In this document: piece after piece, positions 21,202-34,506 of the stretch
How positions within the stretch are numbered: position 1 is the stretch's first letter
Layout: every line of letters starts with the position of its first letter
From: Hydrogenimonas cancrithermarum
GTDB lineage: Bacteria > Campylobacterota > Campylobacteria > Campylobacterales > Hydrogenimonadaceae
DNA: 64,000 bases
Direction of reading: 5' to 3'
NCBI RefSeq assembly: GCF_030296055.1
Contig: NZ_AP027370.1
Location: 1,192,501-1,256,500, forward strand
Made by a program: the position numbers and the translations under genes
Notes under the pieces: model-generated
What the model saw: only the letters and a program-made list of their open reading frames with translations
Database searches by the model: none
Told to the model about the DNA's origin: nothing

Positions 21202-21594
21202 TCAGGCGTTTTTGAGTGCTTTCGCCCATGATTCCATCGCATTGTTCGCCTGCGGATTGGGCGCTTCCATGAAGATGACGACAAATTTGTCACCCATATC
21301 GCTGACGCCGATGGAACGCGGGCGCACAGCCATCACTTCCGGCGTCGGAAGCTCCTTGCCAAAGCAGAAGACAATGTTTTTCGCCCCTTTGATCTTTTCG
21401 TTGATCTCGCCTTCGGCCAAACCGCTGGTATGGGCATAGTGATCGAATGTCGCGATGTAAGCCGCAACCGGATGCTCCTCGATTTTCGCTTTGAAGTAGT
21501 CGATCACATCATCGACCGTTTTGCATGTCGTCTCCTCTTTGTCGATGATCAGTTCGAAAATCGGATACTTCTCTTTGAATACTTTCTGGGTCAC
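21202..21594 (-). CDS. Conserved small cytoplasmic protein, DUF6858-like, unknown function
   Basis: The 130-residue soluble protein starts at GTG with AAGGAG seven bases upstream. It has no signal peptide or membrane helix. It is an alpha/beta protein with a central segment NIVFCFGKELPTPEVMAVRP and conserved-looking histidines near residues 41, 52 and 54. I associate it loosely with a campylobacterotal family of unknown function (DUF6858). It stands alone between the Kef gene and modC. No catalytic motif is evident. Confidence 0.6.
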   Translation of the reverse strand: MTQKVFKEKYPIFELIIDKEETTCKTVDDVIDYFKAKIEEHPVAAYIATFDHYAHTSGLAEGEINEKIKGAKNIVFCFGKELPTPEVMAVRPRSIGVSDMGDKFVVIFMEAPNPQANNAMESWAKALKNA

Positions 21595-21677: not shown

Positions 21678-22577
21678 TTAATCTTCAGAATTGCCTTTGG
21701 CTGTTTCCGCCCTGAAAATCATCGGGTGGAAGGCTTTGGAGACGATCTGGATCCGGCTGCCGATACGCAGTCCTTCGCGTTCACGCTCTGTAGCCATGAT
21801 TTTGACGATCTGCGTTCCGACGGCAACGGTCAGCAGATAGACCATTTCGCACGGTTCGATGGCGAGCACTTCACCAACGAATTTGAAGCTGCTGCTGATG
21901 CGCTCTTTGACAAAGACCTCCGAAGGGGTGCCCACCTCTTTTATCTCTCCGCGCTCGAGGCGATAAACGCTCCCGCAGAGGCGGAAGATTTCGCTCGGAT
22001 CATGACTCACAAGGATCGTTGTCAGTTTGAACCGCTTATGGATCTCGGCAAGCTCGTCCTGGAGTCTGATACGCATCGCATGATCGAGTGCCGAGAGCGG
22101 TTCGTCGAGCAGAAGCAGGCGGGGGCGGCGCACCAGTGCACGCGCCACCGCAACACGCTGCTGCTGGCCGCCGGAGAGCTGTGAGGGGAGGCGATCGGCG
22201 AGCTCACGCAACCCAATCGTTTCGATAAGCTCATCGACAATCACGGGATTCTCCCCTTTTTGCAAGGCAAAGCGAAGATTCTCCGCGACCGTCATATTGG
22301 GGAAGAGCGCGTAATCTTGAAAAACGAATCCTATTTTGCGTTTTGCGGGCGGCAGGTCGATCTTTTTTCGACTGTCGAACCATGTTTCGCCGTCCACGAC
22401 GATGCGGCCGGCATCGGGTGTTTCGAGCCCTGCGATCATCCGCAGTACCGTCGTCTTTCCGGCTCCGGACTCACCGAAAAAAGCGACGAACTCGCCATTC
22501 TCGATGGTTGTCTTAATGCTGAGCTCCAGCTCTCCTTCGGTAGAGAGCAGCTTTTTTTTGAGTGCAAGTTCTATCAT
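21678..22577 (-). CDS. modC: Molybdate ABC transporter ATP-binding protein ModC
   Basis: The 299-residue ATPase has Walker A GESGAGKTT near residue 37, the signature LSGGQQQRVAVARAL near 130 and Walker B RLLLLDEPLSALD near 150. A C-terminal TOBE/Mop domain (about 235-290) matches ModC and the molybdate-regulated group. It energises ModB. The ATG at 22577 lies 2 bases after the modB stop; a longer open frame running through modB is only an overlapping frame and not a fusion. Confidence 0.92.
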   Translation of the reverse strand: MIELALKKKLLSTEGELELSIKTTIENGEFVAFFGESGAGKTTVLRMIAGLETPDAGRIVVDGETWFDSRKKIDLPPAKRKIGFVFQDYALFPNMTVAENLRFALQKGENPVIVDELIETIGLRELADRLPSQLSGGQQQRVAVARALVRRPRLLLLDEPLSALDHAMRIRLQDELAEIHKRFKLTTILVSHDPSEIFRLCGSVYRLERGEIKEVGTPSEVFVKERISSSFKFVGEVLAIEPCEMVYLLTVAVGTQIVKIMATEREREGLRIGSRIQIVSKAFHPMIFRAETAKGNSED

Positions 22578-24987: not shown

Positions 24988-25767
24988 TCAGCGCGCCAAA
25001 AGCACGTGTGAGGATTGAAAGACGGCGTAGGCTGTATCGCCTTCGCAAAACTTCAGTTCATTGAGCGATTCGGAGGTAATGACGGCGGTAATGGTATTGT
25101 CGCCTTGAAGCTGGAGTGTGACTTCGGAAAGCAGACCGTCGTTTTGGATGCTGACGATGGTGCCCTTCAGGCAATTTCTGGCACTGAGTGTCGGCGGTTC
25201 GGTCGCCAGAAGCACCCAGTTGCTTTTAATGAGCGCGAATAAATCTGTGCCGACGTCGATTCCCATGGCTTTGGCGCTTTTATGGGTGATTGAGGCATAG
25301 ATGGTCTCTTTTCCGCCAAGCGTCAATTCGACTTCACACGTCACGGCGGAACTCTTCATTGAAGTTACCGTGCCGTGGTATTGATTGCGCGCACTGGTCT
25401 GCAGGGTCAAACGGCGTCCGAATGACAGAAGGTTTTCAAGGGCGTCTCCTTGTTCACCGAGCAAGTCGAAGAGCTTTTGCTGCAGTGTGGAGATCTCTTT
25501 GTACATACGGATATACTCGTGCCCCTTGGCGGTTAGACGCGTACCGCCGCCCCCTTTACCGCCGGTTTCTCGGACAACGATCGGCTCCGCACTGAGATTG
25601 TTCATCTCGTTGACGGCATCCCATGCGGCTTTATAGCTCATTTTCATCGCTTTGGCCGCTTTGGAAATCGACCCATAGCGGTCGATCTGCTCGAGAAGTT
25701 CGATGCGCCCTTTTCCGAAAAAAGCCTTTTGTTCGTTTTCGAACCAGAGGTTGCTTTTGATTTTCAT
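24988..25767 (-). CDS. modE: Molybdate-dependent transcriptional regulator ModE
   Basis: The 259-residue regulator has an N-terminal winged helix (about 1-110) with the ModE hallmark GSISKAAKAMKMSYKAAWDAVNEMNN and the wing GGKGGGGTRLT. Its C-terminal half holds two Mop domains beginning TSARNQYHGTV (near 130) and LSARNCLKGTI (near 198), which bind molybdate. It should repress molybdate uptake genes through the box at 24918-24941. The ATG at 25767 is chosen from family alignment; the upstream extension to 25995 is non-homologous. Confidence 0.93.
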   Translation of the reverse strand: MKIKSNLWFENEQKAFFGKGRIELLEQIDRYGSISKAAKAMKMSYKAAWDAVNEMNNLSAEPIVVRETGGKGGGGTRLTAKGHEYIRMYKEISTLQQKLFDLLGEQGDALENLLSFGRRLTLQTSARNQYHGTVTSMKSSAVTCEVELTLGGKETIYASITHKSAKAMGIDVGTDLFALIKSNWVLLATEPPTLSARNCLKGTIVSIQNDGLLSEVTLQLQGDNTITAVITSESLNELKFCEGDTAYAVFQSSHVLLAR

Positions 25768-25832
25768 GGGGTCATTATAGCCTTGCAACCCTTCAAAAGC
25801 CCCACGTGCGCGGAGCCTTCGATCAAAAAGAG

Positions 25833-27017
25833 TTACATTCCGGGGATACGCGGAATTTTGCCCAGTTTGGAGTTGCGGCAGTACCAGCCCCACCCTTTTT
25901 TCAGCCAGTGGCCGATCACGGGCATCGGAATCATTTTGCCACCCTTGTTGTCGCGGTAAACAAACGCGGCACCGTCCCCACTGTCCATGACGCAAAGTAT
26001 ATTGAGATGATCGAGATACCCTTTACGCTCTTCGCTCCCCTTTGCGATCGCATCGATGTTGAACGCGACATTGCGCGCCATCACTTCGGCGATATGCCCC
26101 TGTTTCGCACGCCAGTCCGGACCATCGAGCGCGACCGAGTCACCAATGGCGAAGACATTGTATTTTTCCGGTGTCTCATCGTAGTCATGCATCACTTCAC
26201 AATAGTCGTTGACTTTGATCAGCCCCGCTTCGTTGAGCGGCAGATCGGAGTTTCTGAAAACGGGATGGCCGTCGCCCGCGGGAATGAACATCGTAAAATC
26301 GCTCTCGAGTTTGCTATCGTCTTCGAAAACGATACCGTCCGCTTCGAAACGCTTGATCTTTTTGCCAAAATGTTTATGAATATTGAGTTTGTTGAAAAAC
26401 AGATCCATCATTTTGAGAGCCTGCGGCCCCATCCGCGCACCCGGTTTTTCCATCGGTGCAAAAAAAGTCAGCTCGAACTTGTCCCGAATCCCTTTCTTTT
26501 TCAATTCGTTATGGACATTGAAAAGCACTTCGAATGCCGGACCGCCCCGCACGTTGCTCGGATCTTTCGGATTGCCGCCAAATCCCATCGCGATCTTTCC
26601 ACCCCCTTTTTCTATCAACGCATCGATACGCTCCTTGATTTCGAGCGACTCTTCGGGTTTACCGCAGATCGAGAGGAAATGCTCGCTCCCTTCGTGTTTC
26701 ACTTTGCCGCTACCGATTGCGATAACGAGATACTCGCAGCGGTATTCGCCGTTGGCGCAGACAACACGCCGCTCTTTGGAGTGGATCTCCTTCACCTCAT
26801 CGATGATCAACTCGAATCCATGAGCCTCCTGCAGATCTTTGAGCGGAACGCAGATATCTTCGAACTCCGCTTCACCCGTTGGGATCCAGATCGATGTGGG
26901 ATAGATGTAGAAATAGTCCCTATCGGAAATCAGAGTCACCGAATACCCTTTTTTGCGAAGAAAAATCGCCGCTTCCACACCAGCGAATCCTCCACCAAGA
27001 ATCAAAACCTTTTTCAT
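25833..27017 (-). CDS. FAD/NAD(P)-dependent oxidoreductase, sulfide:quinone reductase-like
   Basis: The 394-residue protein has the N-terminal FAD motif KKVLILGGGFAGVEAA, the NDH-2/SQR landmarks YLVIAIGSG near residue 95 and FAIGDSVAL near 295, and cysteines in SICGKP (about 120) and ILCVMD (about 355). There is no export signal, so it should bind the cytoplasmic face of the membrane. The C-terminus is basic (WLKKGWGWYCRNSKLGK). It is the last gene of the ccoNOQP run, 15 bases after the NifX-like gene. Sulfide or another thiol donor is likely, but NADH is not excluded. Confidence 0.72.
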   Translation of the reverse strand: MKKVLILGGGFAGVEAAIFLRKKGYSVTLISDRDYFYIYPTSIWIPTGEAEFEDICVPLKDLQEAHGFELIIDEVKEIHSKERRVVCANGEYRCEYLVIAIGSGKVKHEGSEHFLSICGKPEESLEIKERIDALIEKGGGKIAMGFGGNPKDPSNVRGGPAFEVLFNVHNELKKKGIRDKFELTFFAPMEKPGARMGPQALKMMDLFFNKLNIHKHFGKKIKRFEADGIVFEDDSKLESDFTMFIPAGDGHPVFRNSDLPLNEAGLIKVNDYCEVMHDYDETPEKYNVFAIGDSVALDGPDWRAKQGHIAEVMARNVAFNIDAIAKGSEERKGYLDHLNILCVMDSGDGAAFVYRDNKGGKMIPMPVIGHWLKKGWGWYCRNSKLGKIPRIPGM

Positions 27018-27032
27018 CGCACTTCTCCTTTG

Positions 27033-27383
27033 TCAGTGATGCGTAAACCGCATGACATTTTCGATCGTAATCTCTTCAAGTTCATCGTTTTTCAATTTAT
27101 CAAGGGCTTCCGAAACGAGGATGCGCCCCTCTCCCGGGTAGTAGAGGCGGACACCCGCATCCTTCAGAAACATGAATGGATTGCCCCCGATATGAGGGGT
27201 GACGATCTCTTTGACACCATTTTCGATAAGCCAGGCAACCGTCTTCGGCCCGGCACCCGCGAAGGGGTTTTCACGAATCACGACCTTTCCGTTTCCATCG
27301 GCGAAGACAAACCACTTCGCCTTCCCGAAAACCGTGGTCAGCGGCGGATCCTCTCTGTTCATCTTTACCGGCATCGCGACCAT
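27033..27383 (-). CDS. NifX/NifB C-terminal-like (dinitrogenase cofactor-binding) domain protein
   Basis: The 116-residue single-domain protein of the NifX/NafY/NifB-C fold (IPR003731-type) contains GAGPKTVAWLIENGVKEIV near residue 43 and HIGGNPFMFLKDAGVRLYY near 64. Homologues bind iron-molybdenum or iron-sulfur cofactor precursors; free-standing relatives outside nif clusters are poorly understood. It sits between ccoG (4-base gap) and the SQR-like gene. No nitrogenase gene is present in the window, so a role in metal or Fe-S handling for respiration is possible but unproven. Confidence 0.75.
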   Translation of the reverse strand: MVAMPVKMNREDPPLTTVFGKAKWFVFADGNGKVVIRENPFAGAGPKTVAWLIENGVKEIVTPHIGGNPFMFLKDAGVRLYYPGEGRILVSEALDKLKNDELEEITIENVMRFTHH

Positions 27384-27387
27384 GAGG

Positions 27388-28842
27388 CTACTCCGCCTTT
27401 TTCAAATGTTTTTGCGCGATGTCCCAACGGGGATAGACGAAGACTGTATGGCGTTCGACGACGATCTTTTCGGGATCGTCCACCGCATAGGCTTTGATCG
27501 TGATCGGAATCGGCGTATCTTTTCGCGTATCTTTCGCCAGCGGCTTGGTCGCCTCCAGCTGTACGATCTTTTTCGCTTTCTTGCCTGCCGCCAGTTTGAA
27601 CGGCTTACTCGGCTTGACGATCTTGATCTCCGGGTGTCCCTCCACTTCGAAGTAGTACGTGTGCTCTTTGCTATCCGTATTCTGGAAGAGGAACGTATAG
27701 TCGTTGACGATCCTTCCGTCATGGGTGAACCGGTAGAGTTGTGCCGTCTTGTTGATATTGAGCAGCATATGCTCTTTTTTGGTCCCCATCACCAGCAGCG
27801 CGACGAAGACGATCGTCAGGGCCACGGCGTACGCGATCGTCCGCGGCCGTATGTAGTGGGTCTTTTCACCCTGTTCGATCTCTCTCGGGGAACTCCACAC
27901 CACGAGGCTCGGTTTACCCAGTGCGCCCATCACTTTGGTACAGGCGTCGACACATTCGAGGCAGTTGATACATTCAAGCTGCATCCCCTGGCGGATATCG
28001 ATATGGGTCGGGCAGACCTTCACGCAGCTTTCACAAGCCGTACACTCCGCCTCGGGCTCTCTTTCATGCAGCTCTTTGACGTTGTGAACCAGCTTTTTCG
28101 CATCCTGCCCCTCATGGTCGTAGATATGCCCTCCGCGGTGCACATTGTAGATCGCCATGATCGTATCGTCGTCGTACATGACCGACTGCACCCTGCTGTA
28201 GGGGCAGATATAGACACAGAAATTCTCTTTAAGCCACACCACATCGACGATCAGAAACAGCGCGATACCGATCCAGAAGCCGATGAGCACGGGGTGCTCA
28301 CCGGGGTTCTGGATATACTGGAAAAAATCCTCCGGCGGAACGAAGTACCAGACGAAGTCCGCGGCCGCAATGAGGGCCAGCACGGACCACAACCCGATCG
28401 CGATCGCCTCTTTCGCCTTGTTCTCCGGTTTGGACCAGTCGGGCTCTTGCTGTTTGTTCGTGATACGTTTACGCAGGTGCAGCAGTTTCGTCTCGAACAG
28501 GTCACGGTAGATGACGCGGAAAATCGTCTGCGGGCACGCCCATCCGCACCAGACGCGTCCTCCGAGCGTCGTCATGAAAAAGATCCCCAAAAACAGCAAC
28601 ATCAACAGAAACGGCATCAGGTAGAGCTCCTGCATATCGAAGCGCACGAACAGAAAATGGAGCTGCTTGTGGTCGAAGTTCAGCAGGAAAAAGTGGTTGC
28701 CGTTGATCTTGATGAACGGCAGCACGAGTGCAACGATCGTTACGATACCGAAGAGCCAGTACCGCTTTATTCGGTACGGTACCCAGTTCTTCAGGTACTC
28801 TTTGGCTCTGTTTCTCTTTTTTGCACCCACCGCTCCCGTCAT
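27388..28842 (-). CDS. ccoG: Cytochrome c oxidase accessory protein CcoG
   Basis: The 484-residue membrane ferredoxin has several transmembrane helices, the N-terminal WCGWACPQTIFR motif and a polyferredoxin segment CTACESCVKVCP with CINCLECVDAC (about 225-275). A C-terminal periplasmic Ig-like domain follows. CcoG helps assemble cbb3 oxidase, reported to act in copper reduction for the CuB site. TAAGG precedes the ATG. It lies downstream of the DUF4006 gene in the same run as ccoNOQP. Confidence 0.93.
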   Translation of the reverse strand: MTGAVGAKKRNRAKEYLKNWVPYRIKRYWLFGIVTIVALVLPFIKINGNHFFLLNFDHKQLHFLFVRFDMQELYLMPFLLMLLFLGIFFMTTLGGRVWCGWACPQTIFRVIYRDLFETKLLHLRKRITNKQQEPDWSKPENKAKEAIAIGLWSVLALIAAADFVWYFVPPEDFFQYIQNPGEHPVLIGFWIGIALFLIVDVVWLKENFCVYICPYSRVQSVMYDDDTIMAIYNVHRGGHIYDHEGQDAKKLVHNVKELHEREPEAECTACESCVKVCPTHIDIRQGMQLECINCLECVDACTKVMGALGKPSLVVWSSPREIEQGEKTHYIRPRTIAYAVALTIVFVALLVMGTKKEHMLLNINKTAQLYRFTHDGRIVNDYTFLFQNTDSKEHTYYFEVEGHPEIKIVKPSKPFKLAAGKKAKKIVQLEATKPLAKDTRKDTPIPITIKAYAVDDPEKIVVERHTVFVYPRWDIAQKHLKKAE

Positions 28843-28852
28843 TGCCTATGCC

Positions 28853-29116
28853 TTACTTCTCGAATTTATATTTGTGGAGGGTATCTCCACCCACCGGATT
28901 ACCGTGGATAATGACATGCGTCTCGTTCTCGAGGTTAGGTCCAACCATTTTAATACCGAGAGGATCAACGATCTCATACGACTGCTGCGCCGTTGCCTGC
29001 TGTGTAGCGATTGCAGCATAGGTCAATCCCGCAAGCGTTGAAAGCAATATTCCCGTCGCAATCAAAAATCCGGTAATTCCGTGAATTCCGAATGGGCTTC
29101 CTTGTTTTTCCATCAT
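28853..29116 (-). CDS. DUF4006-type small membrane protein of the cbb3 locus
   Basis: The product is 86-87 residues. A single hydrophobic helix GITGFLIATGILLSTLAGLTYAAI lies at about 13-36, followed by a polar tail. This matches the DUF4006 proteins that sit beside ccoP in Campylobacterota. It probably associates with, or helps assemble, the oxidase. Two adjacent ATGs are possible; AAGGAG spacing favours the second (29113). It lies 7 bases after ccoP. Confidence 0.75.
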   Translation of the reverse strand: MMEKQGSPFGIHGITGFLIATGILLSTLAGLTYAAIATQQATAQQSYEIVDPLGIKMVGPNLENETHVIIHGNPVGGDTLHKYKFEK

Positions 29117-29123
29117 TTACTCC

Positions 29124-29942
29124 TTATTCGCCACGTGAAAGGCTGAGGATATAGGTACCGACAGCTTTTTCTTGAATCGGTGTCAATCGGCCTTTGAAAC
29201 TGACCATCGTACCGATAAAACCTTTTTTACCACGGTTGAGTACATCCGCGACAAAGTCAGGGGTTCCGTATTTGGACAAATCCGGTGCCATACCGCCCAT
29301 ACCTTTTCCGTCCGCTCCATGACATCCTGCGCATGTCGCGAACTCGGCAGGCTGCTCGCCTTTCATGCCATTGGCGACATACTCTGCAACTTTCTGAGCC
29401 GCGTCACCACTAAGCATACCGGCTGGCATTTCCCCCATAGGATATCCAAGACCTTTCGATCCGTTTTTGATCGTCTCAAGAACTCCTGCAGCGGATCCCC
29501 ACACAGTCAAGTCTGCCGCTTTGCCACCCATACCATCACCGGCAATACCATGACACGGTGCACACTGAACGAGGTAAACACCTTCACCCATCTCCTGAAG
29601 AGTCTGGCTGTCCGCGCTGGCCCATTTGCTTTCGAATCTTTGTGTATGTGCAGCGACCTCTTGATTGTATTCACCGATCTGGGAATATCCGTCGACAGGA
29701 TATCCTGCAATCATATACCACATGCCCCAAATGATCGTACCAAGAAACGTATAGGCCCATCCAGCAGGGAGTTCGTTCTTGTATTCACCAATGCCATCCC
29801 AATTCTCTTCGGCAAGCTCACCCGTCGACTTCTCCGTCTTCATCTGTTTGATATATTTACCAGCGACGTAAATAGTCAGGATGAGGATAACGGCTGCACC
29901 GATCAGGGCGAGCTGATTGACATTATCGCTTAACCAGTTCAT
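29124..29942 (-). CDS. ccoP: cbb3-type cytochrome oxidase diheme subunit CcoP
   Basis: The 272-residue subunit has an N-terminal helix near residues 10-27, a second near 60-75 and two cytochrome c domains with CAPCH (about 132) and CAGCH (about 205). It carries electrons from periplasmic cytochrome c to CcoO. It starts four bases inside the end of ccoQ (ATGA overlap). Size and two-heme layout are standard. Confidence 0.96.
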   Translation of the reverse strand: MNWLSDNVNQLALIGAAVILILTIYVAGKYIKQMKTEKSTGELAEENWDGIGEYKNELPAGWAYTFLGTIIWGMWYMIAGYPVDGYSQIGEYNQEVAAHTQRFESKWASADSQTLQEMGEGVYLVQCAPCHGIAGDGMGGKAADLTVWGSAAGVLETIKNGSKGLGYPMGEMPAGMLSGDAAQKVAEYVANGMKGEQPAEFATCAGCHGADGKGMGGMAPDLSKYGTPDFVADVLNRGKKGFIGTMVSFKGRLTPIQEKAVGTYILSLSRGE

Positions 29943-30163
29943 TTTTGCTCCTTGTTTTCATTCATCTCATCAGAATTCTCATTGGGTTCAACTGGCTTAC
30001 TGTCGAGTTCATCGTCCAGCGCCAGATTCCCATATTTCTCATAATTTCTCGTGCCTTTTTTTTCGGCACGGTAGAGATGCAGGATATAGGCGTAAAGAAC
30101 CACCACCAAAAAGACGGTGAAGAAAAAGTATCCAAATGCCTGCAATTCTCTAATATTTTCCAT
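29939..30163 (-). CDS. ccoQ: cbb3 oxidase small subunit CcoQ
   Basis: The 74-residue product has one membrane helix (FGYFFFTVFLVVVLYAYILHLY) and an acidic C-terminal tail. Position between ccoO and ccoP, size and topology identify CcoQ, which stabilises the oxidase complex. It overlaps ccoP by 4 bases and is slightly longer than many CcoQ proteins because of the Asn/Glu-rich tail. Confidence 0.85.
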   Translation of the reverse strand: MENIRELQAFGYFFFTVFLVVVLYAYILHLYRAEKKGTRNYEKYGNLALDDELDSKPVEPNENSDEMNENKEQK

Positions 30164-30171
30164 GCCGATCC

Positions 30172-30837
30172 TTAATGAAGGCTGTTCAGATATGCGATCA
30201 ATGCAACGATTTCAGGAATTTCACCACGTGCTACCGCATCTTTGACATCCTGATTTTTCATGTCGTCAGCAACCTTTTTCGCCTCTTCGAGCGCCTCTTT
30301 TTTCGCCTCTTCCCATGTCCCGAGTTTAGTATGGCCCGGCTTGTCATAAGGGACGTTGAAAACTTTCTTGACCGTCAATGCTTCCGCATAAGCCGTCTCA
30401 AGATCGACATTTTGATGAAACATATGTTTATATGCTGGCATGATGGAACCAGGAACGACAGATGTCGGTTCCCACATGTGGTTCTCGTGCCAATCAGTCG
30501 TACGATACTCGCCAACACGGTGAAGGTCCGGACCTGTACGTTTTGAGCCCCACAGGAACGGTCGATCATACGCATACTCCCCACTTAGGCTGTACGGACC
30601 GTAACGGTCGGTTTCAGACTTGAATGGACGGATGAGCTGTGAATGACATGCATTACAGCTGTCTTTGATATAGACATGGCGCCCTGCAAGCTGAAGCAGT
30701 GTATAGGGTTGTTTACCTGCCACTGGACGGGAAGCCTGTGCAAAATCAGGCACGATCTCGATAAGTCCAGCGAACGCGATGACGAGGAACAGAACTACCG
30801 AAAAGAAAAACGGTCTTTTTTCTAGCCAATGAAACAT
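30172..30837 (-). CDS. ccoO: cbb3-type cytochrome oxidase monoheme subunit CcoO
   Basis: The 221-residue subunit has an N-terminal membrane anchor (FFFSVVLFLVIAFAGLIEIV) and one heme site CNACH near residue 62 within the conserved KDSCNACHSQLIRPF. SIMPAYKHMF supplies the axial methionine region. It passes electrons from CcoP to the CcoN active site. It lies 12 bases after ccoN and 8 bases before ccoQ. Confidence 0.96.
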   Translation of the reverse strand: MFHWLEKRPFFFSVVLFLVIAFAGLIEIVPDFAQASRPVAGKQPYTLLQLAGRHVYIKDSCNACHSQLIRPFKSETDRYGPYSLSGEYAYDRPFLWGSKRTGPDLHRVGEYRTTDWHENHMWEPTSVVPGSIMPAYKHMFHQNVDLETAYAEALTVKKVFNVPYDKPGHTKLGTWEEAKKEALEEAKKVADDMKNQDVKDAVARGEIPEIVALIAYLNSLH

Positions 30838-30849
30838 TCTACCCTCCTC

Positions 30850-32313
30850 TTATGCGCCCATAGGCGATGCAAATGCAGGCTCTTTTTCAAGCACTTTGTC
30901 GCTTTGCATTGTTTTAACGAAGTTGTAAGCCCACATAAAGAGACCCACAACAAACAGCAGGCCGCCGATTGCACGAATCGTATAGTACGGATGCAGTACG
31001 GTGACCGTATCGATAAATGAATATGCCAGGTTTCCATATTGGTCGACCGCTCGCCACATCATACCTTGCGTAATACCAGCAATCCACATACTGGAGAAGT
31101 AGAGAACGATACCTGTCGTTTGAATCCAGAACTGCATCTCCATCAGTTTTTTACTATAAATCTCACGCTTGTAGAAACGCGGAGCCATATGGAGTGATGC
31201 GGCGATAATCATAAATGCAACCCAACCGAGTGTACCGTCATGAACGTGTCCCGGAATCCAGTCAGTGAAGTGTGCGAGTGCATTGACCGACTTGATCGCC
31301 TGAATCGGACCTTCGAGTGTCGAAAGCATATAGAATGTCGAAGCAAGGACCATGAACTTGATAAGCGGAGACTCTTTCAACTGGTTCCATTCACCCTTCA
31401 TCGTAAGAAGCATGTTGATCGCAGAACCCCATGAAGGCAGGATTAGAATAACCGAGAAAATAGATCCCATTGTCTGCATCCAGTCAGGCACTGTCGAATA
31501 GATCAAGTGGTGTCCACCAGCCCACAGATAGACGAACATCAATCCCCAGAAAGAGAGCAGTGAAAGCTTGTAAGAGAAGACAGGCTGACCGGACTCTTTC
31601 GGAAGGAAGTAGTAGATGATCGCGATGATCGGCACGGTAAAGACGAATGCGACCGCATTGTGTCCATACCACCACTGAACGAGTGCATCATTGGTACCGG
31701 AGTACATGGAAACGGAGTGCATCCAGCTACCCATACCTGTCACGAAATAGGTCGGGACTTCCATGTTGTTGAAGAGATAGAGCATGGCAACACCGAGGAA
31801 TGTCGCAATGTAGTACCACATGGAAATGTAAAGTGTTTTCTCACGTCGCATACCGATGAGACCGAACATCGCAGTACCCCAAAGAACCCAGACTACGACG
31901 GTCAACAGGTCAAGAGGCCACTCCATTTCGGCATACTCTTTGGATGTCGTAAATCCGAGAAGCTCGGAAACGACCATCCATGCAGCGAGCGCGAGGTAGA
32001 GCCAGAAATGAAGTTTTCCGACGCCATGAACGAATTTCGATTCGGCGATGGAAACTTTCAGAACACGCTGTGCTACATAGTAGAAAGTCGCGAAAATACC
32101 GCTCAGCGTAAAGCCGAACGCCACCACATTCGTATGGATCGGTCGAAGACGGCTGAATGTTCCATACTGGCCGAACAGATTGTTCAGTTCAGGGAACGCC
32201 AGTTCAAACGCGATATACGTACCAATTGTCATACCGACAATACCGAAAGTAATGGCCAGATAAGTGAACCATTTCGCGACGGTATAGTCGTATTCCAACG
32301 CTGCATTTTGCAT
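30850..32313 (-). CDS. ccoN: cbb3-type cytochrome oxidase catalytic subunit CcoN
   Basis: The 487-residue heme-copper oxidase subunit has 12 membrane helices. Heme and CuB histidines are visible in RPIHTNVVAFG, QWWYGHNAVAF, AGGHHLIY and WIPGHVHDGTLG. It is the high-affinity terminal oxidase used by microaerophiles. AAAGGAGG lies 5 bases before the ATG, one of the strongest ribosome sites in the window. First gene of the ccoNOQP run, with a repeat-rich promoter region upstream. Confidence 0.97.
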   Translation of the reverse strand: MQNAALEYDYTVAKWFTYLAITFGIVGMTIGTYIAFELAFPELNNLFGQYGTFSRLRPIHTNVVAFGFTLSGIFATFYYVAQRVLKVSIAESKFVHGVGKLHFWLYLALAAWMVVSELLGFTTSKEYAEMEWPLDLLTVVVWVLWGTAMFGLIGMRREKTLYISMWYYIATFLGVAMLYLFNNMEVPTYFVTGMGSWMHSVSMYSGTNDALVQWWYGHNAVAFVFTVPIIAIIYYFLPKESGQPVFSYKLSLLSFWGLMFVYLWAGGHHLIYSTVPDWMQTMGSIFSVILILPSWGSAINMLLTMKGEWNQLKESPLIKFMVLASTFYMLSTLEGPIQAIKSVNALAHFTDWIPGHVHDGTLGWVAFMIIAASLHMAPRFYKREIYSKKLMEMQFWIQTTGIVLYFSSMWIAGITQGMMWRAVDQYGNLAYSFIDTVTVLHPYYTIRAIGGLLFVVGLFMWAYNFVKTMQSDKVLEKEPAFASPMGA

Positions 32314-32490: not shown

Positions 32491-34506
32491 TTAAAATTGA
32501 TAAGTTAGATTGCAGTAGTAGTAGCGGCCCGGTTCGTTCAAAAGCATTGGCTCATCATTCGTGCCCGTAACCAGGATCATGTCGGCATAAGTGTTTGTGA
32601 TTGCATATGTGTGATCCAGTATATTGTCGATACCAGCCGTAATCTCGAAATGTCGGCTTACGTCTTTTCTTAATTTAAAATTGAAAACCGCATACCCTGG
32701 AAGCTCCTGTTCTCCATTTTCGTAATCGACATCTTTCCATCGACTCGCAGCGATCATACTCAGCCTCATCGTCAATGAATCGTCATAATCATAACCCAAG
32801 GCGATATTCGCCTTCAATGGCAAAATATTCGGCATATTCATTCCGCTTTGCCCTTCCAGAGGATTCTCTTTCTCACCGCGTTGATACGCAACACCGAAAT
32901 CGGTGTAAAGCTGTTCTGTAATCAAATATGTACCGTCAAAAGAGACACCATATAATGTAGCATCAACATTTTCATATTTATTCGTTGTCTTCTCTTTATT
33001 GAAAGCAATAAAGTTATCTAATTTGCTATAAAAACCTTTAAGCCGTAAATGCGCCGAATCGAACAGATCTTTTTCGATTCCTATATCCACTTGATAGTTG
33101 GTTGTCTGATCGAGATCCGGTGTTCCTATATAAACGCCGGTTTTATCCTGAAAATAGAGTTCTTTGCCATCGGGAACACGGGAAGATTTTCCGATTCCTG
33201 CGAAAATTTTCGTACTTTCATCCATAGAATAGGTTCCAAAAACAAAAGCATTTACGGCAGTATAGTCGTTCGAAGCGGCCGTAGGGTCTTCGTTGCTTAC
33301 AGAAGTGTCGTCATATCTCAACCCCATTTGAAAATCCATGCTTCCGAAACGTTTGTCATACTCCGCAAAAAGCGCACCGTTTTTGGTTTCGGCATAATTG
33401 ATACTGTAAATAGGAGTGGGAATACCGTTTTTGACATAGCGCCCATCCCATTTTCTTTTACTGGCATCGATACCATAAGTCAGTATACCTTCCGCAAGAT
33501 CCATTTTGTTTTTGATTTTACCACCATAGATACGGGAGTTCATCACATTCTCAAATACCGTATTCGTCATAACGGCAGAAACTCTGTAATATGTACCCAT
33601 CGGATGGTAGACCCATGAGTTGTAAAATTCGAAATCGAGCTCTTTTGAAAAATATCCAAGATTCTTGACAACGTATTTTGCATTGAAAAGGTTGGAATCA
33701 TCTTTAAGCGCATCCATCGGGGAGTTGGGATACAAAACATCTTCACTACGATTTGCCGTATAGCTAAGTTTCAATTCCTGATTATCTGTAATGTTTGCAA
33801 ATAATTTCAGCATCGCCGTTTTTTTATTATACGCATCCATATCGTGATAAGGTGTAGAATATTTTCTTCCACCCTGGTCCGGATTGTCCGCGATATAGGC
33901 ATCGACCTGTTCGGCAAGTGTAAGGCCATCTCCATCTTCATATTGGCCACTGCTTTCCGTGGAGGCTCCGACAAATACACGGAACTTCTCGTTTCCTCCA
34001 CTTGCCTGAACTCCGATCTTTCTATATCCCCAGCTTCCGATATTCAAGTTTCCTTCACCGTGGAACCCCTGCTCCGGTTCAAGCGTCTCGACCTCGACGA
34101 GCCCGCTGAGCGTTCCGAAATTCTCCACATCGTAAGGTCCCTCTTTGACAACGATCTCTTTCACGTTGTTGGCGAGGACATGGGAAAGAGGAGGGTCCAT
34201 GCGGTTGGGGCAGCCCCCATAAATTTTTCCGCCATCGATCAATACATTGATATCGTCTTTGCGCATACCGCGTATGATAATATCGTTGGCGATACCGCTC
34301 CGCCGGATCAACTGAATGTCTGGATCCAATTTGTAAAGTGAATCTGCCAGATCGGCGGAACGAACCTCTTCACCGGCGACATCTTTGACGATCGTCATAT
34401 CGACCGTCTCTTCGACTTCGATTGTTTCCAGTGCCACATCTTCGGCATACAAAGAGAGTGACGCCGCCAACGAAATAGCACCGATGCTCAAGACTTTTTT
34501 CATCAT
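32491..34506 (-). CDS. TonB-dependent outer-membrane receptor, OprC/NosA-like copper receptor
   Basis: The 671-residue receptor has a signal peptide (ends near LYAED), a plug domain (about 30-145) and a 22-strand-type barrel ending in aromatic YYYCNLTYQF. The plug carries GGCPNRMDPP with a CxxxM pair Cys99/Met103, and the barrel has HPM at 301-303. Cys-x3-Met plus His-x-Met is the copper-binding set of Pseudomonas OprC. Residue identities are visible; copper as substrate is inferred from them and from the neighbouring cbb3 genes. Repeated GTTAA sequences lie upstream. Confidence 0.8.
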   Translation of the reverse strand: MMKKVLSIGAISLAASLSLYAEDVALETIEVEETVDMTIVKDVAGEEVRSADLADSLYKLDPDIQLIRRSGIANDIIIRGMRKDDINVLIDGGKIYGGCPNRMDPPLSHVLANNVKEIVVKEGPYDVENFGTLSGLVEVETLEPEQGFHGEGNLNIGSWGYRKIGVQASGGNEKFRVFVGASTESSGQYEDGDGLTLAEQVDAYIADNPDQGGRKYSTPYHDMDAYNKKTAMLKLFANITDNQELKLSYTANRSEDVLYPNSPMDALKDDSNLFNAKYVVKNLGYFSKELDFEFYNSWVYHPMGTYYRVSAVMTNTVFENVMNSRIYGGKIKNKMDLAEGILTYGIDASKRKWDGRYVKNGIPTPIYSINYAETKNGALFAEYDKRFGSMDFQMGLRYDDTSVSNEDPTAASNDYTAVNAFVFGTYSMDESTKIFAGIGKSSRVPDGKELYFQDKTGVYIGTPDLDQTTNYQVDIGIEKDLFDSAHLRLKGFYSKLDNFIAFNKEKTTNKYENVDATLYGVSFDGTYLITEQLYTDFGVAYQRGEKENPLEGQSGMNMPNILPLKANIALGYDYDDSLTMRLSMIAASRWKDVDYENGEQELPGYAVFNFKLRKDVSRHFEITAGIDNILDHTYAITNTYADMILVTGTNDEPMLLNEPGRYYYCNLTYQF

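Follow-up and report, generated by a model that had tools for sequence, protein, structure and literature searches.

The gene arrangement in the window, by which we mean the whole 64,000-nucleotide stretch of Hydrogenimonas cancrithermarum DNA that was analyzed, raises the question of whether the genes for a NifX-fold protein and an SQR-like flavoprotein form the tail of the cbb3 oxidase operon. A sequence-only reading had proposed that they do, and the gene order and gaps that it described are indeed present: on the minus strand, a gap of 4 bp separates ccoG from a downstream ORF of 116 amino acids, and a gap of 15 bp separates the latter from an ORF of 394 amino acids. A promoter scan of positions 25600 to 29200 returned one site, which is fewer than in shuffled sequences, and none on the minus strand, and thus weighs neither way on an internal promoter.

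All of the following window genes lie on the minus strand. The cbb3 locus starts with a gene for a TonB-dependent receptor (32491 to 34506), whose score of 166 bits against the TonB-copper model TIGR01778 is below the equivalog cut-off of 472. This gene is followed by ccoN (30850 to 32313; TIGR00780, 676 bits), ccoO (30172 to 30837; TIGR00781, 288 bits), ccoQ (29939 to 30163; TIGR02736, 96 bits), ccoP (29124 to 29942), a gene for a small DUF4006 protein (28853 to 29116; PF13179, 74 bits), and ccoG (27388 to 28842). The match of ccoP to TIGR00782 (132 bits) is below the cut-off of 180, and its position and sequence are kept in relatives. The product of ccoG matches TIGR02745 with 514 bits, versus a cut-off of 317, and includes a 4Fe-4S dicluster domain (PF13746, 164 bits). 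The 116-amino-acid protein encoded next (27033 to 27383; nifX) has the single-domain NifX-type fold that had been proposed for it, as judged from profile matches, its predicted fold, and a Pfam match to PF02579 (Nitro_FeMo-Co) of 42.1 bits versus a cut-off of 26.3; no NCBIfam family matches it. The gene for the SQR-like flavoprotein (25833 to 27017; sqr) is followed by a mod operon (TIGR00637, TIGR00638, and TIGR01256) with the order modE (24988 to 25770), Mop, modA, Mop, modB, and modC, ending near position 21678, and then by a gene for a DUF6858 protein (21202 to 21594; PF21651, 208 bits), a recurrent neighbor of sqr, nifX, and cydAB in relatives. In the relative G212, the mod operon is absent from the place between sqr and the DUF6858 gene, and it therefore looks inserted in the present genome.

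The answer to the question begins with the finding that the whole window lies within a head-to-tail duplication of 111,017 bp in the assembly (G000:C1:1108881-1332340). When the chromosome is compared with itself, positions x and x + 111,017 are identical over 1108881 to 1221323 except for one base, which is located inside ccoG. Two identical nifX matches and three copies of ccoG, the latter evenly spaced at about 111 kb, are present in the genome, and we refer to these ccoG genes from left to right as copies A, B, and C, wherein B is the copy in the window. Window positions 1 to 28823 recur to the right, on the copy C side, at a distance of 111,017 bp and with 1 mismatch in 28,823 bp, and positions 27398 to 64000 recur at the same distance to the left, on the copy A side, where they are identical at that offset. 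Copies A and B are the same to the right of 27398 and differ to the left of it. Copies C and B are the same to the left of 28823 except at 28582, where B carries the base of A. The interval that must hold the crossover is therefore 27398 to 28581. The ccoG gene of the window is thus a hybrid that forms the inner joint of the duplication, with its start (the N-terminal part of the protein) from copy A and its end from copy C.

The two outer copies reveal the parental arrangements. At the left outer locus, the order is TonB receptor, ccoN, ccoO, ccoQ, ccoP, DUF4006, ccoG, a gene for a 232-amino-acid protein without a Pfam match, ccoH (FixH), rplM, and rpsI. At the right outer locus, a divergent moaC is followed by a resolvase-domain gene that we call recS, and then by ccoG, nifX, and sqr. 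The assembly therefore has parental ccoG repeats on the outside, the hybrid at the inner joint, and two identical head-to-tail units. The two ccoG genes are long, near-identical repeats in direct orientation, such that unequal recombination between them could have made the joint and yielded the tandem duplication, or an assembly loop could have passed through them. We favor an explanation wherein the window holds a recombination joint between twin ccoG genes, and wherein recS-ccoG-(nifX)-sqr is an accessory oxidase module, and we assign this combined reading a probability of about 0.72.

The alternative that survives best concerns the duplication itself, which might be an assembly artefact created when a 111-kb loop between two ccoG repeats was walked twice. 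Outside ccoG, the 111-kb units are without a single base of difference, and contig ends in fragmented genomes of the same genus often fall inside ccoG, which indicates that this gene acts as an assembly repeat. However, the assembly consists of only 3 contigs, and long reads capable of spanning a 1.4-kb repeat were probably used. Moreover, bacteria commonly undergo tandem duplication between direct repeats. We therefore regard an artefact as a serious possibility, albeit one that we somewhat doubt. The contamination estimate for the genome of 4.42% is, in our reading, about as expected from 111 kb of duplicated markers. Regardless of whether the duplication is real or an artefact, the placement of nifX and sqr is not that of an ancestral cbb3 operon tail.

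This conclusion is consistent with the arrangement in relatives, where the order cbb3-ccoG-nifX-sqr occurs in none of the readable genomes and is thus unique to this assembly, at the duplication joint. A strain-specific order is the outcome that the sequence-only reading had itself given as a disproof. G074, G212, G145, and G125 carry the cbb3 locus and the recS cluster at separate places, and none of these genomes has cbb3 genes joined to ccoG-nifX. The cbb3 locus ends in ccoG in the first three of these genomes, and in the DUF4006 gene in G125, which has one ccoG only; the operon end seen in relatives is ccoG, the gene for the 232-amino-acid protein when present, and ccoH. Elsewhere in the genome, all four carry moaC-recS-ccoG-(nifX)-sqr, with ccoG and sqr kept without nifX in G074 and G125. 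An apparent absence of nifX from the rest of the genus was rejected as a sampling effect, given that four further Hydrogenimonas members (G212, G207, G211, and G201) carry the gene. Apparent frameshifts affect ccoG, sqr, and the adjoining transporter gene in the cluster of G145 (L299:9800-15100), while the ccoG of its cbb3 operon is intact, which reflects either errors in sequencing or decay of the cluster.

The same separation is observed in a second family, f9. Both of its genera that have nifX carry recS-ccoG-nifX-sqr, and a second ccoG is present in the cbb3 operon in G013, G036, and G057. In three genomes of the f9 genus g13, cydA and cydB come next after the cluster, and in the one genome that was read in detail, a DUF4492 gene separates sqr from cydA. 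The gene recS adjoins ccoG in all 30 recS loci read, and families f4 and f1, the latter being that of the present genome, have moaC in divergent orientation to recS. The conserved unit is thus recS-ccoG-(nifX)-sqr, wherein nifX is optional. Accordingly, the ccoG-nifX-sqr order emphasized in the sequence-only reading is conserved in two families, but its ccoG is the second, recS-linked copy and not that of the cbb3 operon. The apparent cbb3-ccoG-nifX-sqr operon is a misplacement by the duplication joint, and reasoning from operon structure at this site would tie two genes to the wrong promoter. What is left of interest is the homogenized ccoG pair and a set of oxidase-linked NifX-fold and SQR-like genes. 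Separately, a TonB receptor gene is located upstream of ccoN in relatives as well as in the window, in both families (L129, L131, and L223), and its resemblance to copper receptors suggests that copper uptake is tied to the oxidase.

The likeness of the two ccoG copies extends beyond this genome. We compared the pairs from six genomes of families f1 and f9 (e.g., loci L127 and L008). Within-genome identity in f1 is 99.2% for copies A and C of the present genome, 98.9% in G074, and 99.4% in G212, and ranges from 97.4 to 99.4% in f9, whereas identity between species is approximately 68 to 86%. A maximum-likelihood tree places the members of every pair as sisters, with support of 100/100 in all six cases, and topologies in which a family's three cbb3-locus copies group together are rejected, with p-AU values of 9e-107 and 3e-5. 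Gene conversion, which would keep the two genes alike, is apparently the simplest reading of these homogenized pairs, and a less likely cause is that recent duplications landed repeatedly at the same pair of sites. The proteins otherwise resemble known CcoG/RdxA/FixG proteins (TIGR02745), with a full-length match above the equivalog cut-off and with copy A inside the cbb3 operon, an arrangement shared with many other bacteria. The difference is the second copy, which is tied to a resolvase-fold gene and nifX-sqr and is near-identical to the first. Our literature search found nothing on ccoG together with gene conversion. The homogenization of two respiratory assembly genes inside genomes of two families is a clean case of this process, and the present joint illustrates how a false operon can arise when a repeated gene evolves in concert.

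Although the cbb3-operon tail is not what links nifX to an oxidase, the broader idea of a module coupled to oxidases is partly upheld by a class-wide recurrence of NifX-fold genes beside terminal-oxidase genes. A profile of the NifX-fold group matched in 68 of 397 genomes of the class, and 58 loci were read. Within 3.5 kb of these 58 loci, we observed cydAB in 28, ccoG in 13, DUF134 in 29, sqr in 14, and DUF6858 in 11, after checking the identity of cydA and cydB. Either cydA or ccoG is present within this distance of the NifX-fold gene in 18 of 22 genera, representing seven families, whereas we estimate from genome length that about 1% of randomly chosen positions would be as close to one of these genes. 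In many Campylobacterota genera, the NifX-fold gene adjoins cydAB, often with a divergent DUF134 gene (L055, L056, L057, and L260-L292), and DUF6858 genes recur near sqr, nifX, DUF134, and cydAB (window 21202 to 21594; L055, L277, and L130). Neither NifX-fold (Nitro_FeMo-Co) proteins with cytochrome bd nor DUF134 with NifX was found in the literature searched.

These genes might instead be neighbors without a shared function, given that nifX is optional and that sqr is often elsewhere; indeed, sqr is not adjacent to ccoG in the loci read from families f5, f7, f8, and f10. We consider mere proximity unlikely, because gene order is conserved in two families and because NifX-fold genes are repeatedly located next to oxidase-linked genes in seven.

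An equally unlikely possibility, in our view, is that the cluster serves sulfide oxidation or protection, with the flavoprotein a true SQR that shields the oxidase. The 394-amino-acid protein is of the FAD-dependent oxidoreductase type, in agreement with this part of an earlier SQR/NDH-2 assignment, as indicated by a Pyr_redox_2 match of 70 bits. By profile, SQRs are its closest solved structures, with that of Aquifex (3hyv) first at an E-value of 1.8e-38, and cytochrome bd, which tolerates sulfide, lies beside nifX in relatives. However, scores against NCBIfam SQR models are far below their cut-offs, with a weak match to SQR_III_seleno (NF049943) of 76 bits versus 525, and the redox cysteine pair of SQR (Aquifex Cys156 and Cys347) is incomplete. 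The protein keeps Cys118 and Cys342, the latter aligning with Aquifex Cys347, but the position of Cys156 is occupied by Arg157, which is invariant in 13 of 13 aligned homologues. The replacement of one redox cysteine of solved SQRs by an invariant arginine weakens the earlier suggestion that the cluster detoxifies sulfide for the oxidase. Compared with SQRs (3hyv, 3h8l, and 3kpk) and NDH-2, the protein thus shares the FAD-binding two-Rossmann architecture and two of the three SQR cysteines, and differs in its arginine and in its family scores. On this sequence evidence, it is an SQR-like, predicted flavoprotein rather than an established SQR. An AlphaFold model of the protein, computed from four sequences, reached a pLDDT of 40 and was left out of the evidence.

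The product of recS has a resolvase N-terminal domain and an HTH_7 domain, like the serine recombinases (e.g., gamma-delta resolvase). Unlike these enzymes, it keeps Arg8 but does not conserve the catalytic Ser10 or the DRLGR arginines, and its gene is beside ccoG in every locus read. The lack of these catalytic residues leads us to read RecS as probably a regulator.

Proteins of the CcoG family reduce Cu(II) through two Fe-S clusters, and their physiological electron donor is unknown (PMC7558416). Quinol-dependent Cu(II) reduction is supported by NDH-2 in Escherichia coli (PMC7558416), and about half of cbb3 activity is lost in a ccoG mutant of Campylobacter jejuni (PMC8267372). We propose that the recS cluster would serve as an accessory module of high-affinity terminal oxidases, wherein CcoG, a predicted cupric reductase, would act in oxidase maturation by reducing Cu(II), the SQR-like flavoprotein would connect the quinone pool with CcoG or with an oxidase by electron exchange, and the NifX-fold protein would take part in this pathway by binding a metal or a metal-sulfur cluster. 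An accessory redox or metal role of this kind is probable, with every biochemical role read from gene neighborhood. As a minority hypothesis, the SQR-like flavoprotein could feed electrons to CcoG, for which it is a natural candidate donor by its place beside ccoG. Two genomes of family f5 have the SQR-like gene and lack both ccoG and ccoN, and the flavoprotein therefore cannot serve CcoG only. The more specific notion that the NifX-fold, SQR-like, and DUF6858 proteins make up an uncharacterized bd/cbb3 module in Campylobacterota, in which the SQR-like protein is the missing quinone-pool electron donor of CcoG, seems improbable as a whole. Even so, the recurrent proximity of NifX-fold genes to cydAB and ccoG, observed in seven families, provides a candidate set for the electron source of CcoG, as well as for the role of nitrogenase-type cofactor-carrier folds where nitrogenase is absent.

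Nitrogenase is indeed absent from the present genome, as had been stated from the window, in that the nifH model TIGR01287 has no match, whereas this search detects nifH in named controls and in 4 of the 20 genomes to which it was applied. No nifH was found with this model in any Hydrogenimonas or f9 nifX carrier searched, and the PF00142 matches in the present genome are weak, partial, and not NifH. The NifX-fold protein shares its Pfam family with NifX/NafY carriers, and NafY (1p90) and NifX (9ian) are among its weak fold matches, but general PF02579 proteins are closer. By profile and predicted fold, the closest are TM1816/TM1290, MTH1175, PH0822, and the orange protein (ORP) of D. gigas, which are alike in length and in their single-domain fold; structures of TM1816, TM1290, and MTH1175 are among the profile matches. 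The predicted model has a moderate pLDDT of only 65, and thus fold matches support the family and not details. Ankyrin-repeat matches in the structure search look like repeat-driven chance and were set aside. Compared with other small PF02579 proteins, this group is distinguished by its location beside ccoG or cydAB and, in the f1 and f9 members, by an invariant His64 and a C-terminal His116.

That the NifX-fold protein handles molybdenum or an ORP-like Mo-Cu-S cluster, thereby linking Mo and Cu homeostasis, is rather far-fetched. In favor of this idea are its fold match to the ORP structure 2wfb, the mod operon downstream of sqr both here and in G013, and the divergent position of moaC relative to recS in f1 and f4. 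However, of the 58 nifX loci, only a few have mod genes nearby and most have oxidase-linked genes nearby, and moaC adjoins recS also where the cluster is without nifX. A third PF02579 gene of the genome (L010:4259-5943) is divergent from a DUF134 gene and is followed by a gene for a DsbD_2-type membrane protein.
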